Positions 48,625 through 58,184 of a stretch of DNA of 58,184 nucleotides are shown one piece after another. This DNA comes from Gemmatimonadota bacterium (GTDB lineage: Bacteria > Gemmatimonadota > Gemmatimonadetes > Palauibacterales > Palauibacteraceae), in contig JAJDUL010000041.1 of the NCBI GenBank assembly GCA_022826685.1, positions 1-58,184 of the forward strand, written 5' to 3'. A model generated the notes under the pieces. The model ran no database searches, was not told the DNA's origin, and saw nothing but the letters and a program-made list of their open reading frames with translations. Made by a program: the position numbers and the translations under genes. Each line of letters starts with the position of its first letter. Position 1 is the first letter of the stretch.

Positions 48625-48987
48625 CTACGCGCTCCAGGGGTAGCTGTCCTCAAAAGCTTCGTCGAAGCTGAAGAGCCCCTCGAAGTCCTCTCGCGAATCG
48701 TCGGGTTGTTTGATCAGCACTCCACATTCAACCAGCGCGAAGACGATCTCGCCGATGTCCGTCGTGCCGTGCACACCCCAATGTTCGAGTACGGTCCGCG
48801 CCAGAGGGCCGAACCGCTCCAGCGCGAGTTCCCGGACCGCGTCTGCGACCTCGGCGCCGCTGATGTGACGAGGCAGTTCGAGGCTGGACAGCCGGCGCTG
48901 GAGGGCGGAGAGCAGAAACAGGTATGCGGCTTCCGTATACCTGGGGTTGCCCTTCCTGATGCCCGTCAGAACCCCCGCTGTGTCCAC
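48625..48987 (-). CDS. Minf_1886 family protein, function unknown
   Basis: This 120-residue protein resembles the Minf_1886 (Planctomycetes/Verrucomicrobia-type) uncharacterised family. Visible features are RYTEAAYLFLLSALQRRL (N-terminal helix), RHISGAEVADAVRELALERFG, ARTVLEHWGVHGTTDIGEIVF and an acidic tail ending YPWSA. No catalytic residues are evident. The start is GTG at 48987 with GAGGTGAG upstream, and a promoter lies at 49060-49087. It heads the unit that continues with the zinc ribbon, nnrDE, thiL and plsC. Confidence 0.78.
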   Translation of the reverse strand: MDTAGVLTGIRKGNPRYTEAAYLFLLSALQRRLSSLELPRHISGAEVADAVRELALERFGPLARTVLEHWGVHGTTDIGEIVFALVECGVLIKQPDDSREDFEGLFSFDEAFEDSYPWSA

Positions 48988-49116: not shown

Positions 49117-50394
49117 CTACGGATAAAGCGGGTAATCCGCGCACAACGCCCGGACCTCGGAGTCCACCGCCGAGAGCGTCCCATCATCGCCTTCGGAGCG
49201 CAGCGCACGGTGCATGAGGTCGGCGATTCTCTCCATTTCGTTCTCGCCCATGGAGCGGGTCGACACCGCCGCCGTCCCGATCCTGATGCCGGAGGCCACG
49301 AAGGGCGAACGGGTCTCGAACGGCACGGTGTTCTTGTTGACGGTGATGCCCGCCCGACCCAGGAGAGCCTCCGCATCCCTGCCGGTGAGATCCGTCGTCC
49401 GGAGGTCCACGAGGAGGAGGTGCGTATCCGTCCCTCCCGCCACGAGGTCGTAGCCGTGTTCGGCGAGCCGCCGTCCCAGAGCGCGGGCGTTGCGCACGAC
49501 GAGGTCCGAGTATTCGCCGAACTCGGGGCGCAGTGCCTCCCCGAGTGCGACCGCCTTTGCGGCGATCACATGCATCAGGGGACCGCCCTGGAGTCCGGGG
49601 AACACGGCCTTGTCGACCGCCTTCGCGTGCTCCTCGCGGCACAGGATGAGCCCGCCCCGCGGCCCGCGCAGCGTCTTGTGCGTCGTCGTCGTCACGACAT
49701 CCGCGTGCGGCACCGGGGATGGATGGTGTCCCGTCGCCACGAGACCCGCGATGTGCGCCATGTCCACGAGGACGGCGGCGCCGCATTCCTCGGCGATCTC
49801 CGCGAAACGGCCGAAATCGATGCGTCGCGGGTAGGCGCTGGCGCCCGCGATGATGACGGAGGGACGCACCTCCAGCGCGGTCGCCCGGAGGGCGTCGTAG
49901 TCGATCGTCCGGTCCGAGGCTCGCACTCCATAGGGGACGACGCGGTACCAGAGACCCGAGAAGTTCACGTGCGAACCGTGCGTCAGGTGCCCGCCGTGCG
50001 AGAGATCCATCCCGAGGAGCGTCGCCCCGGGTTCGGTGAGCGCCTGAAGCGCGGTCATGTTCGCTCCGGAGCCGCTGTGCGTCTGGACGTTGCTGTGGTC
50101 CGCCCCGAACAGCCGGTGCGCGCGCTCACGGGCAAGATTCTCGACCTCGTCCACGAACTCGCAGCCGCCGTAGTAACGGCGCCCGGGATAGCCCTCCGCG
50201 TACTTGTTCGTCATCACGGAGCCGGTCGCCTCGAGCACTCCCCGCGACACGAAGTTCTCGCTCGCGATCAACTCGAGACCCGTGCGCTGTCTCTCGAGCT
50301 CCCGGTCAATCGAGGCCGCCACCGCGGGATCCGTCTCGCGGAGCGGGCGTGGGTCCAAGGCGCCGATGGCTCTGCGTTCGGCCGTCGCACTCAC
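49117..50394 (-). CDS. glyA: serine hydroxymethyltransferase
   Basis: GlyA interconverts serine and glycine with tetrahydrofolate and is the main one-carbon source. The 425-residue PLP enzyme has [60 protein letters not shown] and the PLP Lys in [29 protein letters not shown] lies near the C-terminus. The start is GTG overlapping the acyl-CoA dehydrogenase stop (GTGA). It is the last gene of the run that starts with rex. Confidence 0.97.
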
Positions 50395-51584
50395 ACGTAT
50401 CCCCTCTCTCTGTAGAGTTGCCGCGCGATCAGGCTGCGGTGCATTTCGTTGGCTCCCTCGTAGATCTCGGTGACCTTCGCGTCCCGGAAGAGACGTTCGA
50501 CGGGGTATTCCCGCGAGTATCCATAGCCCCCGAACACCTGCACGGCTTCGCGGGCGTTCGTCATCGCGGTCTCGCTCGCGAACAACTTGGCCACGCTGGA
50601 GAGGCGGCGCGCCCGCGGGTCGCCCAATGTGTGCGCGGCGGCCGCACGCTCGAGGAGTCCCCGGGCGGCCTCGAGCCGGGTCACCATGTCGCCGAGCTTG
50701 AATTCCATCCCCTGAAAGTCGCGAAGTGAACTCCCGAACTGGCGTCGAGTCTCCGCGTATTCGAACGCCGCGTCCACCGCAGCCGAGGCGATCCCGAGCG
50801 CCTGCGCCGCGATCCCGAGCCGGCCCGCCTCGAGGCCTTCGAGCGCGTAGCTGAAGCCCCGGTTCACCTCTCCGACCATAAGTTCTTGCGGTAAAAAGAC
50901 ATCCTTCAGAGACAAAGCAACCGTCTCCGAACCTCGCTGTCCCATCTTTTTCTCTTTCCTGCCGACCGACAATCCGTCCGTCCCGGCCGGCAGGAGAAAG
51001 GCGCTGATGCCCCGCGATCCACGCCGGTCATCCGCCGTGTCCGTCCTGGCGAAAATCAACACGACATCGGCGGACGCGCCGTTCGTCACCCACATCTTCT
51101 CCCCGTTGAGAATCCAGCCGCCGTCCGCGGGTGTGGCCTGCGTCCGAAGCGCCGCGGCATCCGTTCCGGAATCGGCTTCGGAGAGGGAGAAGGCGCCGAG
51201 CAGCTCTCCACTGGCCATCCTGGGGAGCCACTCCTCTCGCTGTGCCTCGCTTCCCCGGCGCAGGAGAATCGCGGCGGCGAGCGAATTGTGAATGCTGACG
51301 GAGACCGCGACCCCGGCATCGCCCCACGCGAGTTCCTCCAGCACGTAGAGGTACGTGACGAGATCGAGCCCGAGGCCGTCGTACCGCTCCGGCACCCGCA
51401 TGGCGAGGAAGCCGAGCTCGCCCAGTTCCCGGTGGATCGCGGCATCGAAGCGGTCCTCGTTCGCGTCCCGGGCTTCCGCCGTGGGCTGCAAGCGCTCTTC
51501 GGCGAACTGGCGGGCGAGCGTGAGAATCTGCTCCGCCTCGGAGGAGAGTTCGAGGGCAGACCAGGAGCGGCGGCCGGTCATCAT
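50391..51584 (-). CDS. acyl-CoA dehydrogenase (short-chain type likely)
   Basis: The 397-residue flavoprotein removes two hydrogens from acyl-CoA and passes electrons to ETF. The N-terminal helical domain is followed by [20 protein letters not shown] and [18 protein letters not shown] (FAD and substrate contacts). [34 protein letters not shown] and [20 protein letters not shown] follow, with the catalytic Glu in [11 protein letters not shown]. The last motif is typical of short/branched-chain enzymes; butyryl-CoA activity would fit the neighbouring genes but is inference. Two adjacent ATGs (51584 and 51581) are possible starts; the stop of the hbd-like gene lies within them. Bases 50875-50975 use AT-rich codons unlike the rest. 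Confidence 0.93.
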
Positions 51585-52447
51585 GCCGCGGGGTAGTCGT
51601 AGAAGCCACGACCGGACTTCCGGCCCAGCCGTCCGGCGGCGACGTACTTCGCGAGCAGCGGACAGGGACGGTACTTGGAGTCGCCGAGTTCCGCGTGCAG
51701 GACGCGCATGATCGCGAGGCACGTGTCCAGTCCGATGAGGTCGGCGAGCGCAAGCGGTCCCATGGGGTGGTTCATGCCGAGCTTCATCACGGTGTCCACC
51801 GCCTCGGCCTCCGCCACGCCCTCCATGAGACAATACACGGCTTCGTTGATCATCGGCATCAGGATCCGGTTGGCGATGAAGCCGGGATAGTCGTTCGCCA
51901 GGACCGCCGTCTTCGAGAGCCGCGCGCAGAGGCCGAGTGTCAGGTCGGCCGTGTCGTCGGAGGTCTCGAGCCCCCGAATGACCTCGACGAGACGCATGAC
52001 GGGCACGGGGTTCATGAAGTGCATCCCGATCACGCGCCCCGGGTCGGCGGCGTGCGAGGCGATGAGGGTGATGGAGATCGAACTCGTGTTCGACGCGAGC
52101 AGCGTCTCCGGACTCACGACGGCGGACAACTCCTCGAAGAGCCTGAACTTGAGCGTCGGGTCCTCGCTGGCGGCCTCCACGACGACTTCCGCGTCACCGA
52201 GCGCCCCCAGCGACCGCTCCGTCGTGATCCGGTCGAGCGCCGCCCCGGCCTCTTCGGTGGAGATGAACTCCCGGCGGGCCTGGCGCTCGAGGTTTCGCTC
52301 GATGGAGGCGCGCGCGCGGCCGAGCGCTTCCGGCGCCACGTCCACGAGGCGGACCTCGATGCCGGCGAGCGCGAAGACGTGGGCAATGCCGCTTCCCATC
52401 GTCCCCGCGCCGACGACGCCGACGCGCGACACTTCACCCGCTCGCAT
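51581..52447 (-). CDS. 3-hydroxybutyryl-CoA dehydrogenase
   Basis: This 288-residue enzyme interconverts 3-hydroxyacyl-CoA and 3-oxoacyl-CoA with NAD(H). The N-terminal Rossmann motif is [20 protein letters not shown], followed by [27 protein letters not shown] and [15 protein letters not shown] (catalytic His). [19 protein letters not shown] and [14 protein letters not shown] follow. The hydratase part of bifunctional FadB is absent. The start is ATG at 52447 with GGGAG upstream, overlapping the CPBP gene by 14 bases; an ATG at 52468 is less likely. Confidence 0.95.
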
Positions 52448-53339
52448 CGAGACTCCCACCATTGTCATCGGGGCTTCCCGTCGTCGTCGACAACCGGGAA
52501 CCGGATCGGCTTCGCGACCCCGCGACCCGCCACAGCCACGCGGTCCCGAGTACCGTCACGAAGGTGATCATCAGCGCCCCCTCCGGCCCGAACGCACCGC
52601 CCGTCCACAGTACCGGGCCCGTGACGGCGGCTTCGAGGCCGGAGACCGACACGTCGAGCCCGCTCACGGGCAGACCACTCGCCGCCATCACCCAGTTCCA
52701 GCCGAAGTGGAGCCCCGTGACGAACCACAGGCTGCCCGAACGCCAGTACGCCACGCCGAGCAACACGCCGGCAAGCGTCAGGTTGACGAGCGCGAGCGGT
52801 GTCACCCCCGGGTTGGCGCCGTGCACGAGGCCGAACGCCACCGAGGTCGCGGCCACGGCGGGAACGGGCCCGAACCGGAGGTGGAGGACGCGGAACGGAT
52901 ACCCGCGAAAAAGGAGTTCCTCCGTGAACGCCGCCACCAGCAGGAGGGCCGAGATGTTCAATCCCTCGAGGATCGGTGCGGCTGACACGGTCCACGAGAC
53001 CCAGCCCGGTGCGATCAGGGCGAGAATGGCGGCGCCGATGATCGCTAGGCCCGCCAGCACGCCGGAACCGAGTTCCAGGAGGCCCGGTGGTCCGGGCCTC
53101 AACCCGAGCGCGGACAGTGGACGCCTGTCGATGCCGACCGCCAGCAGCCAGGTGGCCGCGCACGCGGCGACGAGCACGGGCGCGACGGTCCGCCAGTCGA
53201 TGGACTCCGCCGCCTCGGCGCCCGGCAGCCCGGCGATGACCGCGGTCGCGAACCCGAACACGAGCCCGAAGGCGATGAAGAGACCGGCGAATGCCGCCAG
53301 CCGCCCGGCCCAGGCCAAGCCTTCGGGCTTCACGTTCAT
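52434..53339 (-). CDS. CPBP-family intramembrane metalloprotease
   Basis: The 301-residue membrane protein has about seven or eight helices and the CPBP (Abi) motifs: EExxxR as [22 protein letters not shown], and HFGWNW. Family members include CAAX-type proteases and putative bacteriocin-immunity proteins. The N-terminal ~120 residues are extra helices. The ATG at 53339 overlaps the thiolase stop (ATGA), and its end overlaps the hbd-like gene. Why a protease sits inside a fatty-acid cluster is unclear; it may be a passenger. Confidence 0.88.
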
Positions 53340-54547
53340 CGCCGCTCCACGCTCAGCGCGACGGCGTTGCCTCCGCCAAGACACAGGGTGGCCATCCCCT
53401 GCTCGACGTCACGGTCCCGCATGGCATGGAGGAGCGTCGTGAGGATCTTCGCGCCCGAAGCCCCGATCGGGTGACCGAGGGCGATCGCCCCGCCGCGGAC
53501 GTTCACGCGACCGAGATCCAGCCCCAGTTCGCGGGCGTCCGCGAGACACTGCACGGCGAACGCCTCGTTCATCTCCACGAGTCCGTAGTCGGCGACCACC
53601 GTCCCATCGAGCGTCATGAGCTTCCGCACGGCGGCGACGGGCGCGAAGAAGAGGTCGCGGGGCGCCATCGCACCCACGGAATAGGCCCGGATCCGCCCGA
53701 GGACCGGAAGGCCGTGCGCCGCGGCGTACGCTTCGGACGTGACGAGCGTGGCAGCCCCCCCGTCGTTGAGGCCGGGCGCGTTTCCGGCCGTGACGCTGGG
53801 CTCGGTGACCTCCGGCGGAGCATCGCCCGCGAAGGCGGGCCTCAGCTTTGCGAGCGCCTCGAGCGACGTGCCGCGACGCGGAGGCTCGTCCGCCTCGACC
53901 GTCACGGTCCCCCGGCGCGTCTCGATGTGGACGGGGACGACTTCCTCGGCGAATTCCCCCCCATCGATCGCGCGGATCGCCTTCTTGTGGCTACCGAGCG
54001 CGAAGGCGTCCTGGTCCTCGCGGCTCACGCCCGCCTTGTGGGCCGTGTACTCGGCGTGGCCACCCATGTGACAAGTACCGAAGGCGCACCACAGACCGTC
54101 GTGTATGAGACCGTCGACGAGCGACCGGTCTCCGAACTTCACTCCCTCCCGGTGTCCCCGGAGGAGATACGGGGCGTTCGACATCGACTCCATTCCGCCG
54201 GCCACGACGACCCGGGCGTCACCCGCCTTTATCGCCTGCGCCGCCAGCATGACGGCTTTCAGGCCGGAACCGCAGACCTTGTTCACGGTCACCGCCGGGA
54301 CCGTCACGGGCACCCCGCCCCGGATCGCCGCCTGGCGGGCGGGCGCCTGTCCGACCCCCGCCTGCACGACGTTCCCCATGATCACATCGTCGATCTCCTC
54401 CGGGTCGACGCCGGACCGGTCGACCGCTGCCGAAATCGCGAGACCGCCGAGATCCGGGGCCGCGAGGGAGGAGAGTCCGCCCATGAAGCGACCCGTGGGG
54501 AGCCGCGCGGCGGAGACGATGACCGGGGTTCTTTCGCTATCGCTCAT
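53336..54547 (-). CDS. acetyl-CoA C-acetyltransferase (thiolase)
   Basis: This 403-residue thiolase interconverts two acetyl-CoA and acetoacetyl-CoA. The nucleophile Cys92 is in [36 protein letters not shown] and [12 protein letters not shown] are conserved thiolase segments. The catalytic His is in [17 protein letters not shown], and the general-base Cys in [12 protein letters not shown]. The sequence fits a biosynthetic (acetoacetyl-CoA) type over a long-chain beta-oxidation type, but motifs alone do not decide direction. The ATG lies 6 bases after the exonuclease stop. It overlaps the CPBP gene. Confidence 0.94.
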
Positions 54548-54553
54548 GTTCCA

Positions 54554-55447
54554 TCACTCATGCCGTCGTTCGTGTTTTTCAACCCGTTCGGAAGGCCGAT
54601 CCCGCCGTTTGTCGCGCTCGCGTCGCGGAACCGGCCCGAGAGCTTTTCGGAGCGCAGGCCACGTCGTCCAGCCACGTCGTTCCGCGTCCTCGAGCATGCG
54701 GACGAGGATCCGGGCCGTAGCGACCGCGTCGCCCCGCGCGCGGTGCCGTTCGCGGATCTCGATCCCGTAGTAGTCGGCGACCGAGTCCAGGCCTCGACGC
54801 TCGAGTCCCGGCAGCAGCCGGCGCGCCATGTGAACCGTGCACAGCCGAGGTCCGCGCGGCAGGCCGGCCCCTGCCCGCCGCATCTCGGCCCGCACGAAAC
54901 CCCAATCGTACGCCGCGTTATGTGCAACGAAAACCCGGCCGCGCAGGTGCTCGCGCACCGGATCGCAGATCTGGGAGAAACTCGGTGCCCCGTGCGTCAT
55001 CTCCGTGCGGATGCCGGTGAGGCGCGTGATCCATGGGGGAATCGCCACGCCGGCATCCACGAGCGTCGAATAGCATCCGCCGATGGCGCCACGATCCACG
55101 TCCACGATCGCGATCTCCACGACCCGGCCGTTCCCCCCCGCGACACCGCCGTTGGTCTCGACGTCCACGACCGCGTATCGGAGGTCGCGCAGCCCCCTGG
55201 CCGCCGCCTTGCGGGTCCGCCGGCTTTCCCCGGCCAGCCGCCAGGCGTCGCCGTCCTCCCCGTCGCGGGCGACCTCGGGAATCCCTTCAAGCAACTGTGC
55301 GACGAGCCGCCCGGCCATGGTCGGCGGACACCCGTGCATTCCGAGCACCTCGGCGGCGAGATCCACGGACGAGCGGGGACCATCCTCGAGGCGGCGCAGC
55401 GCCTTGCGCACCAGCACCCCGTCGGGCGCGAAGTGCATGCCCGTCAC
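54554..55447 (-). CDS. DEDDh 3'-5' exonuclease with N-terminal wHTH-like region
   Basis: The 297-residue protein has an N-terminal part of about 75 residues with winged-helix-like character (VRKALRRLEDGPRSSVDLAA), then a DnaQ/PolC-type exonuclease. Exo I is VVDVETNGG, Exo II VFVAHNAAYDWGFVRAEM, and Exo III HRARGDAVATARIL with the DEDDh His. A basic Lys/Arg/Glu tail follows. The GTG at 55447 overlaps the rex stop (GTGA) and has GGGAG at good spacing; an in-frame ATG at 55438 is possible. It could serve as DNA polymerase III epsilon-like proofreader or RNase T-like enzyme. Its place between rex and thiolase is unusual. Confidence 0.82.
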   Translation of the reverse strand: MTGMHFAPDGVLVRKALRRLEDGPRSSVDLAAEVLGMHGCPPTMAGRLVAQLLEGIPEVARDGEDGDAWRLAGESRRTRKAAARGLRDLRYAVVDVETNGGVAGGNGRVVEIAIVDVDRGAIGGCYSTLVDAGVAIPPWITRLTGIRTEMTHGAPSFSQICDPVREHLRGRVFVAHNAAYDWGFVRAEMRRAGAGLPRGPRLCTVHMARRLLPGLERRGLDSVADYYGIEIRERHRARGDAVATARILVRMLEDAERRGWTTWPALRKALGPVPRRERDKRRDRPSERVEKHERRHE

Positions 55448-56091
55448 CCATCGCTCCCGGTACGCCGACCCGCCTCGGACATCAGGTAGCTCAGGCCTTC
55501 CAGTTCGAGCACGATGTCCACGGTCCGGATCGGCACGCCATTGACCTCGGAGAGTTCGATCGGCGCGAAGTTGAGGATCGCGCCCACCCCCGCGCGCTCG
55601 AGTTCCGCAGCGACCTCGGCGGCCACCTCCGTGGGGGTTGCGACGACCCCGATCTCCGCTCCGCACTCCGCGATGGCCGGCCGCAGTTCCCTCATGGGAC
55701 GAATCCTGAGCCCGTGCGCCCGTGTCCCGATCTTGGCCTCGTCGACGTCGAAGGCCGCGACGACATCGAAGCCGCGCGCCGCAAGCCCGCCGTACCCGAG
55801 CAGCGCGGACCCGATCTTGCCGACACCCACCAGCGCGAGCCGCCAACTGCGCGAAAGCCCGAGGATTTCCTCCAGCGCCCGGACGAGCCCGTCGACCGAG
55901 TATCCGCGCCCGCGTTTCCCGAACGAGCCGAAGTGGCTCAGATCTTTCCGGACCTGGGCCGAGGTGGCCCCTGAAGGTTCGGCAAGCTGCGAACTGGACA
56001 CGAACTCGACGCCGGCTCGCTCGAGGTCGCGCAACATGCGGAGATACAGGGAGAGGCGCCGAACCGTCGAATCGGAAATTCTGCCGCTCAT
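55444..56091 (-). CDS. rex: redox-sensing transcriptional repressor Rex
   Basis: Rex represses genes of fermentation and respiration and leaves DNA when NADH is high. The 215-residue protein has the N-terminal winged helix (STVRRLSLYLRMLRDLER, VRKDLSHFGSFGKRGRGYSV) and the Rossmann NAD(H)-binding domain (LVGVGKIGSALLGY, FDVVAAFDVDEAKIG). GVGAILNFAPIELS and the C-terminal swapped helix follow. The chosen ATG is 56091; an upstream GTG in frame at 56115 lies within the operator and is unlikely. A consensus Rex operator ends 9 bases before the start codon, indicating autoregulation. Confidence 0.95.
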   Translation of the reverse strand: MSGRISDSTVRRLSLYLRMLRDLERAGVEFVSSSQLAEPSGATSAQVRKDLSHFGSFGKRGRGYSVDGLVRALEEILGLSRSWRLALVGVGKIGSALLGYGGLAARGFDVVAAFDVDEAKIGTRAHGLRIRPMRELRPAIAECGAEIGVVATPTEVAAEVAAELERAGVGAILNFAPIELSEVNGVPIRTVDIVLELEGLSYLMSEAGRRTGSDG

Positions 56092-56099
56092 GCCCGCCC

Positions 56100-56117
56100 T
56101 TGTGAAAGGTTTCACAA
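56100..56117. promoter_or_regulatory. Rex operator (ROP)
   Basis: TTGTGAAAGGTTTCACAA matches the Rex consensus TTGTGAAnnnnTTCACAA at all 14 defined positions. The 8-base arms are perfect inverse repeats. It lies between the candidate -10 and the rex start, over the predicted transcription start, so bound Rex would block initiation. Confidence 0.9.
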
Positions 56118-56120
56118 ACC

Positions 56121-56149
56121 AAGATAGGGCCGGCCCGTGCTCAACTCAA
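56121..56149 (-). promoter_or_regulatory. promoter of the rex operon
   Basis: Minus strand: TTGAGT, 17-base spacer, TATCTT. The predicted start falls inside the Rex operator. It overlaps the last codons of ksgA. Confidence 0.65.
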
Positions 56150-56982
56150 CGCGACGCGCCCCCTTCCTTTCCGGCCCGAAGCGCCGCCGCCAGGCGCACG
56201 AAGGTCGGAGGATCCAGCATCTCGGGTCGCACCGCGGGATCGATCGAGAGTCGCCCCAATACCGCATCCACATCTCCGGCGAAACTCAGCTCTGGAGCCG
56301 TGCGCAGCGTCTTCTGGAGTTGCTTCCGGCGGCGGTTGAAACACGCGCGCGTCAGCGTCCTGAGCGCCACGCGGTCCACGTCGGCGGCGTCCGGCCGCGG
56401 TTCCAGGCGAACCACCGCCGAATCGACCGCGGGGACGGGACGGAACGCCTGGCGGCCCACCCGGAAGGCAAGCGAGGCGACGGCGATCGCCTGTACCCCC
56501 ACGGAGAGCGCGCCGTACGCCTTGATGCCCGGCGGCGCGACGATACGTTCCGCCACCTCTCTCTGCACCGTGAGCACGATACGACCGGCCGCCGGCTCGA
56601 GTTCGAGAAAGGTGAAGACGAGAGGCGACGTGATGTTGTAGGGGACATTCGACACCACGCGAACTGCGGCGGCATCCCGCACGAACTCCGAGAGTCCGAT
56701 GCGAAGCGCGTCGCCTTCCACGACCTCCACGTCCGGCCGGTCCCCCCAGCGGGCGCGGAGCCCCCGGGCAAGGTCGTGATCCTTCTCGACGAGGATGAGG
56801 CGACGGCAACGGCCGACGAGGTACTGGCTGAGCTCTCCGTGCCCCGGTCCAACCTCGAGCACTACATCCGCGAGCCGCGGTTCGAGTTCCCGCACGATCT
56901 TGCGCTGGATGTTCGGGTCGACCAGGAAGTTCTGGCCGAGCGCGCGCTTCGGCCGGGTGCCCTCGGCCTTCCCGGCGCTCAC
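56146..56982 (-). CDS. rsmA: 16S rRNA (adenine(1518)-N6/adenine(1519)-N6)-dimethyltransferase
   Basis: RsmA/KsgA dimethylates two adjacent adenosines in the 3' helix of 16S rRNA. The 278 residues have LGQNFLVDPNIQRKIVRE at the N-terminus and the SAM-binding EVGPGHGELSQYLV. VEKDHDLARGL and the catalytic SNVPYNITSPLVFTFL (the NxxY loop) follow, then PVPAVDSAVVRL. The start is GTG overlapping the stop of the phosphatase gene (GTGA). It ends just inside the rex promoter. Loss of RsmA gives kasugamycin resistance in other bacteria. Confidence 0.96.
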   Translation of the reverse strand: MSAGKAEGTRPKRALGQNFLVDPNIQRKIVRELEPRLADVVLEVGPGHGELSQYLVGRCRRLILVEKDHDLARGLRARWGDRPDVEVVEGDALRIGLSEFVRDAAAVRVVSNVPYNITSPLVFTFLELEPAAGRIVLTVQREVAERIVAPPGIKAYGALSVGVQAIAVASLAFRVGRQAFRPVPAVDSAVVRLEPRPDAADVDRVALRTLTRACFNRRRKQLQKTLRTAPELSFAGDVDAVLGRLSIDPAVRPEMLDPPTFVRLAAALRAGKEGGASR

Positions 56983-58184
56983 AGGGAAGCCGCGACGGCC
57001 GTCCGATCGTCCAGCCTCATCTCGTCATCGCTGTCCGCGAAGAGGGCCGCCACGAGGAGCTCGGGATCGAAGTCCCCGCGGTCGATACACCTCCGCACCC
57101 GGGCATCGGGCGTCTCGAGAGGATCGCTGAGCTCGGCGAGACCATCGGTGAACGCCAGCAGCGTTTCCCCGGCCGACGGAACCCGTGCCTGCCGGTACGA
57201 CCGAACGGTCGCCACGCCGATCGGGGGATCCAGCGCGGCGAGACGGCGTGTCCCGTCCGATCCGAGCAGGTACGCATACGGGTGGCCCGCGTTCGCGTAG
57301 CGCAGTTCTCCACGCTCGGGATCGATGACTCCGTAGACGAGCGTCATGTACATCTCGGTCGCGTCGAGCGCCGCCCGGAGCTGCCCGTGCATGGCGTCCA
57401 GGACGGCCGCGGGCTCGGTCTCCACGCCCGTCGCCAGGACCACGGCACTCAGCGTGCGGGCCATGATGAGGGCGGCGGAGGGACCGTGTGAACTCACGTC
57501 GCCGAGCATGACGCCCAGACAACCGTCCGCGAGCCGGACGAGGTAGTAGAAATCGCCGCCCAGGGAGAGCGCGGGATCGCACCGGGCCGCTATCCGTCCG
57601 AGATCGCGAAAATCCTCGGGGGGCGGCAGAAGTTTCAGTTGCAGATCCCGTGCGATCTCCAGTTCGGCCAGCACGCGCTCCCGGCGCAACCGTCGTGCGA
57701 GGAGGCGCTCCCGCGAATGTTCGCCCTCGGCCACGGCGCCGATCCAGCCCGCGAGCAGCGTGGCGGCGGCATCGCCGCTGCTCGCCGGCTCGTGGACGAG
57801 CCGCAGCCGTCCCGCATCGCCCAGCGGCCACGTCTCCCGAACCTCCTGCGGGCCGTTCGACTCCTCGTCATTCTCCCAGCTGTCGAACAACACCTGCGAG
57901 CCGTCCTCGAAGCGCCGGTCGAGGCGAAATCTGAGACCCGTGACATCGGCGAAACGCCTCAGGAGGGGTTCGATCCTCACAAGGGGATCCGGCGCGCCCC
58001 GGAACGAGAGCGTGACCCTGTTGCCGGTTTCGTTGAACGTCACGCCATCGGCGAGCTGCCTCAGCAGAAAGAGGCCCCGCCCCCGCGGCCGCCCAATGCC
58101 CTCCTCCGATACGGGGTCCGGCACGGCATCGGGATCGAATCCGCTCCCCCCGTCCGAGACCTTCACGCGCAGCCCGTCCGCGTG
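56979..58184 (-). CDS. HATPase-SpoIIE fusion phosphatase (5' end outside window)
   Basis: The visible part, 401 residues, is cut by the window edge at its N-terminus. It starts in a HATPase_c_2 (anti-sigma/RsbW-like) domain with G1 VSDGGSGFDPD and the G2-like GRGLFLLRQLADGVTFNETG. A central region of about 110 residues has no clear domain. The C-terminal SpoIIE/PP2C-type phosphatase has LSLGGDFYYLVRLADGCLGVMLGDVSSHG, split here as SLGGDFYYLVR and GVMLGDVSSHGPSAALI, plus LAFTDGLAELSD. Such fusions work in partner-switching control of sigma factors. No STAS or sigma gene is in the window. Confidence 0.85.
   Translation of the reverse strand, partial: HADGLRVKVSDGGSGFDPDAVPDPVSEEGIGRPRGRGLFLLRQLADGVTFNETGNRVTLSFRGAPDPLVRIEPLLRRFADVTGLRFRLDRRFEDGSQVLFDSWENDEESNGPQEVRETWPLGDAGRLRLVHEPASSGDAAATLLAGWIGAVAEGEHSRERLLARRLRRERVLAELEIARDLQLKLLPPPEDFRDLGRIAARCDPALSLGGDFYYLVRLADGCLGVMLGDVSSHGPSAALIMARTLSAVVLATGVETEPAAVLDAMHGQLRAALDATEMYMTLVYGVIDPERGELRYANAGHPYAYLLGSDGTRRLAALDPPIGVATVRSYRQARVPSAGETLLAFTDGLAELSDPLETPDARVRRCIDRGDFDPELLVAALFADSDDEMRLDDRTAVAASL

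Follow-up and report, generated by a model that had tools for sequence, protein, structure and literature searches.

A 58,184-bp stretch of DNA from a Gemmatimonadota bacterium of the family Palauibacteraceae (assembly GCA_022826685.1, contig JAJDUL010000041.1, positions 1–58,184; hereafter the window) carries seven tightly packed genes on its minus strand (49117–56091). The first is rex, encoding a redox-sensing transcriptional repressor, followed by a DEDDh exonuclease gene (exo), thl, a CPBP-family gene, hbd, acd, and glyA. An exact Rex operator lies in front of rex, and we consider it probable that the seven genes form a Rex-autorepressed operon under one Rex-controlled promoter. The bacterium is related to marine and sponge-dwelling Gemmatimonadota, and the arrangement is real and common to many of its relatives. 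The gene names, first proposed in a preliminary description made from this DNA alone, were confirmed by family models for all seven. The features of the unit are listed below.

56144–56149, minus strand: −35 element TTGAGT (window sequence; upstream DNA of relatives)
56121–56126, minus strand: −10 element TATCTT, 3 nt before the operator (window sequence; conservation in relatives)
56100–56117, no strand: Rex operator, exact TTGTGAA-N4-TTCACAA palindrome (consensus match; kept in relatives)
55444–56091, minus strand: rex, redox-sensing transcriptional repressor, 215 amino acids, ATG start (NF003995, 237.5 bits, cut-off 126; PF06971 and PF02629; PDB Rex chains, best E 4.4e-46)
54554–55447, minus strand: exo, DEDDh 3'-5' exonuclease domain protein, start GTG 55447 or ATG 55438 (PF00929, 97.5 bits)
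53336–54547, minus strand: thl, acetyl-CoA acyltransferase (TIGR01930, 427.7 bits, cut-off 240.6; PDB thiolases)
52434–53339, minus strand: CPBP/Rce1-like intramembrane protease homologue (PF02517, 76 bits, cut-off 22.4)
51581–52447, minus strand: hbd, 3-hydroxybutyryl-CoA dehydrogenase, start ATG 52447, ATG 52468 possible (NF005715, 404 bits, just below the cut-off of 420; PDB HBD, best E 5.5e-98)
50391–51584, minus strand: acd, short-chain-type acyl-CoA dehydrogenase (PF00441, PF02770, PF02771; PDB acyl-CoA dehydrogenases including SCAD and butyryl-CoA dehydrogenase)
49117–50394, minus strand: glyA, serine hydroxymethyltransferase, GTG start (NF000586, 602 bits, cut-off 335)

The Rex protein comprises an N-terminal DNA-binding domain and an NAD-binding Rossmann domain, both above curated cut-offs (PF06971, PF02629), and matches eight distinct Rex sequences in the PDB. 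In a 14-sequence Rex alignment (A1), VRKDLS in the DNA-binding domain and the G, G, RG, and GY positions after it are invariant. The segment GVGKIG at 89–94 (pattern GxGxxG), which we take to be the nucleotide motif, has G89 and G91 invariant and G94 nearly so, and D115, presumably the acidic residue after the second strand, is also invariant.

An exact Rex operator lies on a conserved promoter

The operator is an 18-bp palindrome, TTGTGAA-N4-TTCACAA; its sequence, TTGTGAAAGGTTTCACAA, matches the Rex consensus, TTGTGAANNNNTTCACAA, exactly, as the preliminary description had it. In the window it is the sole match at up to three mismatches (shuffle mean 0.14), and it is the single exact match in the whole 3.28 Mb genome. 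The clostridial-type motif TTGTTAA-N4-TTAACAA was rejected for this site, since it leaves two mismatches whereas the TTGTGAA type leaves none.

The promoter proposed earlier, TTGAGT (56149–56144) and TATCTT (56126–56121) separated by 17 nt, is present, and the operator begins 3 nt past the −10 box. By manual count it scores 8/12 against the sigma-70 consensus, and a simple promoter scan did not list it because the listing threshold was 9. Between 48800 and 56600 the scan gave one site, 56106–56078, overlapping the operator (one found; shuffle mean 0.4). Support for the promoter comes from its conservation in relatives. We used a first set of 47 rex loci, taken from the window and from 46 of a further 48 genomes in which Rex was matched (all but G023 and the partial G028); 45 of these loci have a site. 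A TTG-N15-19-TANNNT pair whose end lies no more than 8 nt from the operator was found at 35 of the 45, and control positions from these loci gave it 9 times in 35,429. Many of the 45 are near relatives and hence not independent. Upstream of rex, TTGAG together with TATCTT or TATGTT is retained beside the operator while many intervening bases drift, most strongly in the window's family. This conservation supports the view that the promoter is real.

The genes below the promoter leave little space between them. rex and exo overlap by 4 bp (GTG 55447) or are separated by 5 bp (ATG 55438), exo and thl lie 6 bp apart, and 4-bp overlaps join thl to the CPBP gene, hbd to acd, and acd to glyA. The preliminary description gave overlaps of 4–14 bases; this holds for the 4-bp junctions and for CPBP/hbd with ATG 52447 (14 bp), and the latter overlap becomes 35 bp with ATG 52468. 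Terminator-like sites are at chance level (three found; shuffle mean 3.1), two of them on the operon strand, inside acd and exo.

From this layout we infer an NADH response, repression, and a single transcript. At a low NADH/NAD+ ratio, a Rex dimer would occupy the palindrome that directly follows the −10 box, covering the point where transcription is expected to start, and there it would block initiation at its own promoter and could also stop read-through from the upstream gene, ksgA. When NADH rises, Rex would leave, and rex, exo, thl, the CPBP gene, hbd, acd, and glyA would be transcribed together.

The operator accompanies rex across the phylum

Many relatives share the layout, and at least one exact site was present in 102 of 121 Gemmatimonadota genomes, none of which contained the reversed control pattern. 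rex was detected in 109 of the 121. An exact site occurs in 100 of the 109 genomes with rex and in 2 of the 12 without it (Fisher p = 4e-8, a value that ignores shared ancestry; among the 12, a single genus accounts for four genomes and a distant family for three). At rex itself, the 47 first-set loci have 31 exact operators, nine with one mismatch, and five with two; one locus has too little upstream sequence, and the one without a site belongs to G037, whose Rex is just 33% identical. In a named set of 80 loci, whose contigs are partly common to the first set, 66 operators are exact, nine have one mismatch, two have two, and three loci have none; two of these three carry the title Candidatus Eisenbacteria. 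The closest named Rex proteins (92–99% identical) are from Gemmatimonadales or Gemmatimonadetes metagenome-assembled genomes and Candidatus Palauibacter species. Taken together, the single exact site in the genome, the co-occurrence of site and rex, and the retention of the promoter with the operator in relatives make rex autoregulation well supported at the level of sequence.

The window's gene order is a shortened form of a larger cluster

The fullest cluster comprises eleven genes, rex-arginine deiminase-exo-MBL-thl-bioY-CPBP-hbd-acd-amino-acid dehydrogenase-glyA, and is complete at one locus (L111), in the same family as the window. The other loci hold subsets of it, the cluster being fullest in the window's family and partial in other families. 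The extra genes occupy constant positions: arginine deiminase separates rex from exo, an MBL-fold hydrolase stands between exo and thl, BioY comes after thl and before CPBP, and a Glu/Leu/Phe/Val-type dehydrogenase lies between acd and glyA; in some relatives, pta is also found above ksgA. The window and its 12 closest congeners are without the deiminase, MBL, BioY, and dehydrogenase extras, so that the window's order is an abridged version of a cluster that can reach eleven genes.

The linkage of this cluster to rex is patchy. Among loci with at least 7 kb read behind rex (shorter ones were left out), rex is followed by thl and hbd in the same orientation at 27 of 35 in the first set and at 17 of 51 in the named set. 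Of the remaining 34 named loci, 16 carry exo across the operator on the other strand; another 14 have exo behind rex but are missing thl within 5.5 kb, hbd within 10 kb, or both, and the last 4 show neither arrangement. The order rex-exo-thl-hbd-acd-glyA is retained in the 12 congeners (Rex 92–99% identical), and rex-exo-thl-CPBP-hbd-acd reaches families as distant as those of G046 and G049. In G013 (L104/L056), thl directly follows rex, and no exonuclease was found between them. In the linked clusters of the first set, junctions are at most 40 bp long at rex-exo (21/21) and acd-glyA (15/16), and the median is 96 bp between glyA and the Minf_1886-family gene behind it; these lengths were measured from the start nearest the preceding stop, a choice that biases them toward short values.

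The unit is flanked by two genes on the same strand.

48625–48987, minus strand: Minf_1886-family protein (TIGR04138, 121.9 bits), 129 bp past glyA
56146–56982, minus strand: ksgA/rsmA, upstream neighbour of rex (TIGR00755, 246.8 bits)

The Minf_1886-family gene is possibly the tail of the unit; the glyA-Minf_1886 order recurs in relatives. The stop codon of ksgA/rsmA overlaps the −35 element. Above ksgA, 56979–58166 encodes a SpoIIE-type phosphatase that begins with part of a histidine-kinase-like ATPase domain. This gene may be truncated by the end of the contig at 58184, and a relative sits upstream of ksgA-rex in many loci.

The thl–glyA block also occurs away from rex

Several observations weigh against a single Rex-controlled unit. 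The promoter reaches just 8/12 of the sigma-70 consensus, and its geometry beside the operator recurs at only 20 of 76 named-set loci. Nine of the 109 rex-bearing genomes are without an exact site, and two rex-less genomes have one (G082 and G099; other members of their genera have rex, and an assembly gap could possibly explain its absence here). In relatives with the MBL gene, the MBL-thl junction is loose, exceeding 100 bp in 7 of 15 and leaving room for a second promoter, and weak internal promoters may exist within the window.

Weighing on the same side are the genomes in which the block stands apart from rex. hbd was sought in 27 genomes, mainly of families f5 and f7, in which the loci of the earlier sets had shown thl nowhere behind rex; the others belong to f2, f4, f8, and f10. 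The rex neighbourhood had been read beforehand in a minority of the 27. hbd was found in all 27, and its neighbours were again thl, BioY, CPBP, acd, the dehydrogenase, or glyA. Regions upstream of hbd (about 8 kb; one of 4.4 kb) from 20 of these genomes contained neither rex nor a site at up to two mismatches, and the 27 shorter hbd loci gave just two hits, both with three mismatches: the first falls within acd, the second where the CPBP gene ends, about 90 bp before hbd. An operator placed before separate thl-hbd-acd blocks, as selected Rex control of C4 genes might use, was rejected on the result for the 20 regions. Rex control of the thl-hbd-acd enzymes is thus not a general need. By eye, thrS directly precedes thl in about 8 of the 20 regions (L308–L327; e.g., L311 3406–5343 and L324 3556–5523), and a family model confirmed the identity of two of these proteins. 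G035 and G040, in which no rex was found, still have the exo-MBL-thl order and are without a site. The lack of a site both in these two genomes and upstream of the separate blocks argues that the site belongs to rex, and that the metabolic block would be under the operator only where placed behind rex. We regard the thl-to-glyA genes as a separate conserved block that lies behind the rex promoter in some families only. Its control by Rex appears lineage-specific, and position alone may account for it.

Such data could be taken to mean that Rex governs only rex, perhaps with its old neighbour exo, and that thl–glyA are passengers with their own promoter or with an NADH link that is functionless. 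The operator-free blocks, some directly behind thrS, favour this reading, as does the presence of exo near rex where thl and hbd are not, behind rex at 14 of 51 named loci and across the operator at 16 of 51. For the window, however, we consider it unlikely, as its junctions, all overlaps or 5–6-bp gaps, leave no promoter room outside coding sequence, and the gene order behind rex has been held in the 12 congeners and as far as the families of G046 and G049. The Rex-autorepressed operon is the interpretation that we prefer for this locus.

A clostridial reductive route is not supported

A further possibility is a Clostridium-like reductive C4 route, in which high NADH would turn on thl-hbd-acd, leading to butyryl-CoA and regenerating NAD+. 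Some observations are in keeping with it. In a PDB alignment, Hbd has an Asp after the second strand, a residue that marks NAD(H) use. Nine enoyl-CoA hydratase-family stretches were matched elsewhere in the genome, and of the two ETF matches in the genome, both on contig C66, ETF alpha gives slightly better scores against bifurcating ETFs. An NADH-consuming route also agrees with the sign of Rex regulation given in a clostridial study (PMC5367854).

Against this, neither crt nor etfBA, which accompany the clostridial rex-bcd (reverse beta-oxidation) operon, is present in the unit; the interval 49117–56091 is fully occupied by the seven named genes. ETF beta, matched over nearly its full length, is closest to a respiratory ETF (1efp). 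No PHA synthase and no acetate or butyrate kinase was found in the genome, which is 91% complete; the search for product exits was confined to these and did not extend to CoA-transferases or others. Relatives add amino-acid genes that look catabolic, arginine deiminase and the Glu/Leu/Phe/Val-type dehydrogenase. The clostridial reductive C4 route is not supported, because the synthase and kinases were not found and ETF beta best matches a respiratory ETF, and we consider it doubtful. Given also the amino-acid genes of relatives, a catabolic role, in which short-chain acyl-CoA and amino acids would be oxidized to feed a respiratory chain controlled by Rex, is no less probable than a reductive sink. 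A Palauibacterales paper (PMC10469786) predicts acetate fermentation in some species. The preliminary description proposed a tie of NADH/NAD+ to C4 acyl-CoA chemistry and one-carbon supply; given the 20 operator-free blocks and the missing synthase and kinases, that tie is unproven.

The palindrome could also be assigned to the CRP/FNR family, whose consensus TGTGA-N6-TCACA overlaps that of Rex, but CRP is a most unlikely binder and the idea is hardly credible, since the site is located at rex phylum-wide and tracks its presence, and the Crp-type helix-turn-helix model PF13545 gave nothing above cut-off in the genome (one match, 24.7 vs 27 bits).

Other Rex sites lie beside respiratory genes

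The operator loci read are a selection (40 regions chosen among the sites listed, plus loci of genus g17). They contained 86 distinct sites, of which 65 lie elsewhere than at rex, and g17 contributed 27 of the 65. The g17 sites gave no coherent target set under a crude choice of open reading frames (ORFs) and were excluded from the regulon tally. Of the other 38, 19 lie beside a plastocyanin-like cupredoxin, five beside a multihaem cytochrome, three beside clpX, and one each beside cydA and NDH-2; assignment relied on grouping the ORFs near the sites and comparing one or two members of a group with Pfam or NCBIfam, and nine of the 38 are without one. The multihaem cytochromes (L201, L229, L231, L232, L234) are QrcA-like, below cut-off. 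At five of the 19 cupredoxin sites (e.g., L206, L236), a hisG-like ORF, named by eye, is on the other side. Four g17 genomes carry more exact sites than the listed genomes outside the genus (G046, 17; G106, 12; G102, 11; G098, 6; loci L246–L277).

The window's own genome contains two tandem Rex-like sites, one mismatch each and 33 bp apart (L089 6964–6981 and 6997–7014; contig C29:64963–65013). They precede AtpI-type, atpB (ATP synthase A), and atpF (ATP synthase B) genes on the minus strand, with a MoxR-type AAA gene on the other side. From the sampled sites, Rex in Gemmatimonadota looks to be mainly a respiratory regulator. We further propose, tentatively and at somewhat less than an even chance, a phylum-wide Rex regulon over respiratory carriers (cupredoxin, multihaem cytochrome, bd oxidase, NDH-2, and ATP synthase), in which the rex promoter of several families would also have captured as many as ten more genes, those for the breakdown of amino acids and short-chain acyl-CoA and the genes next to them: arginine deiminase, exonuclease, MBL hydrolase, thiolase, BioY, CPBP, hbd, acd, amino-acid dehydrogenase, and glyA. 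This linkage would have been gained or lost between lineages.

Discussion

In Clostridium acetobutylicum and C. pasteurianum, rex lies immediately 5' of crt-bcd-etfAB-hbd, and it is self-regulated in C. kluyveri (PMC5367854). The window's unit resembles this in having rex directly upstream of bcd/hbd-type genes, with autoregulation as the shared theme (PMC5367854, PMC9600882), and differs in being without crt or etf, in including thl, exo, CPBP, and glyA, and in belonging to another phylum. The operator is also of the TTGTGAA type, whereas TTGTTAA is quoted for Clostridiaceae, and the phylum's other sites include respiratory genes. The preliminary description had presented the rex-led unit as distinct. 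As rex-crt-bcd-etfAB-hbd is known from clostridia, this central novelty claim is weaker than stated; what stands is the presence of exonuclease, CPBP, glyA, and thl in the unit, the absence of crt and etf, and the different phylum.

The regulon of Streptomyces avermitilis includes rex-hemAC1DB, cydA1B1CD, nuoA1-N1, ndh2, and atpIBEFHAGDC; cyd, ndh2, and atp are direct targets, and the enoyl-CoA hydratase gene echA7 is also bound (PMC5355995). It shares with the Gemmatimonadota sites the 18-bp consensus, an autoregulated rex-led operon, and atp, cyd, and ndh2 as targets, but there rex leads haem genes, whereas short-chain acyl-CoA genes and glyA follow it in the window. In Caldithrix abyssi, rex likewise opens an operon, 38 bp downstream of a candidate site, and the genes behind it are those of a hydrogenase (PMC5317091).

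In the open-licence PMC literature, we found no description of a Gemmatimonadota Rex regulon; among the papers listed, the Caldithrix paper alone names Gemmatimonadetes and Rex together, and the word Rex is absent from the Palauibacterales paper (PMC10469786). Measured against the Rex literature found, novelty lies in the phylum, in the set of genes, and in the patchiness of their linkage to rex; the kind of redox control is already known. That literature is almost all on Gram-positive bacteria, and a site-level Gemmatimonadota regulon would show how bacteria known mostly from metagenomes sense their respiratory state. If true, the patchy linkage of rex and the metabolic block would offer a natural series in which to watch a regulator gain or lose a metabolic module, and the natural pairs of linked and unlinked genomes could help to tell whether selection maintains redox control of short-chain acyl-CoA chemistry or whether that control is just an effect of the neighbouring gene.

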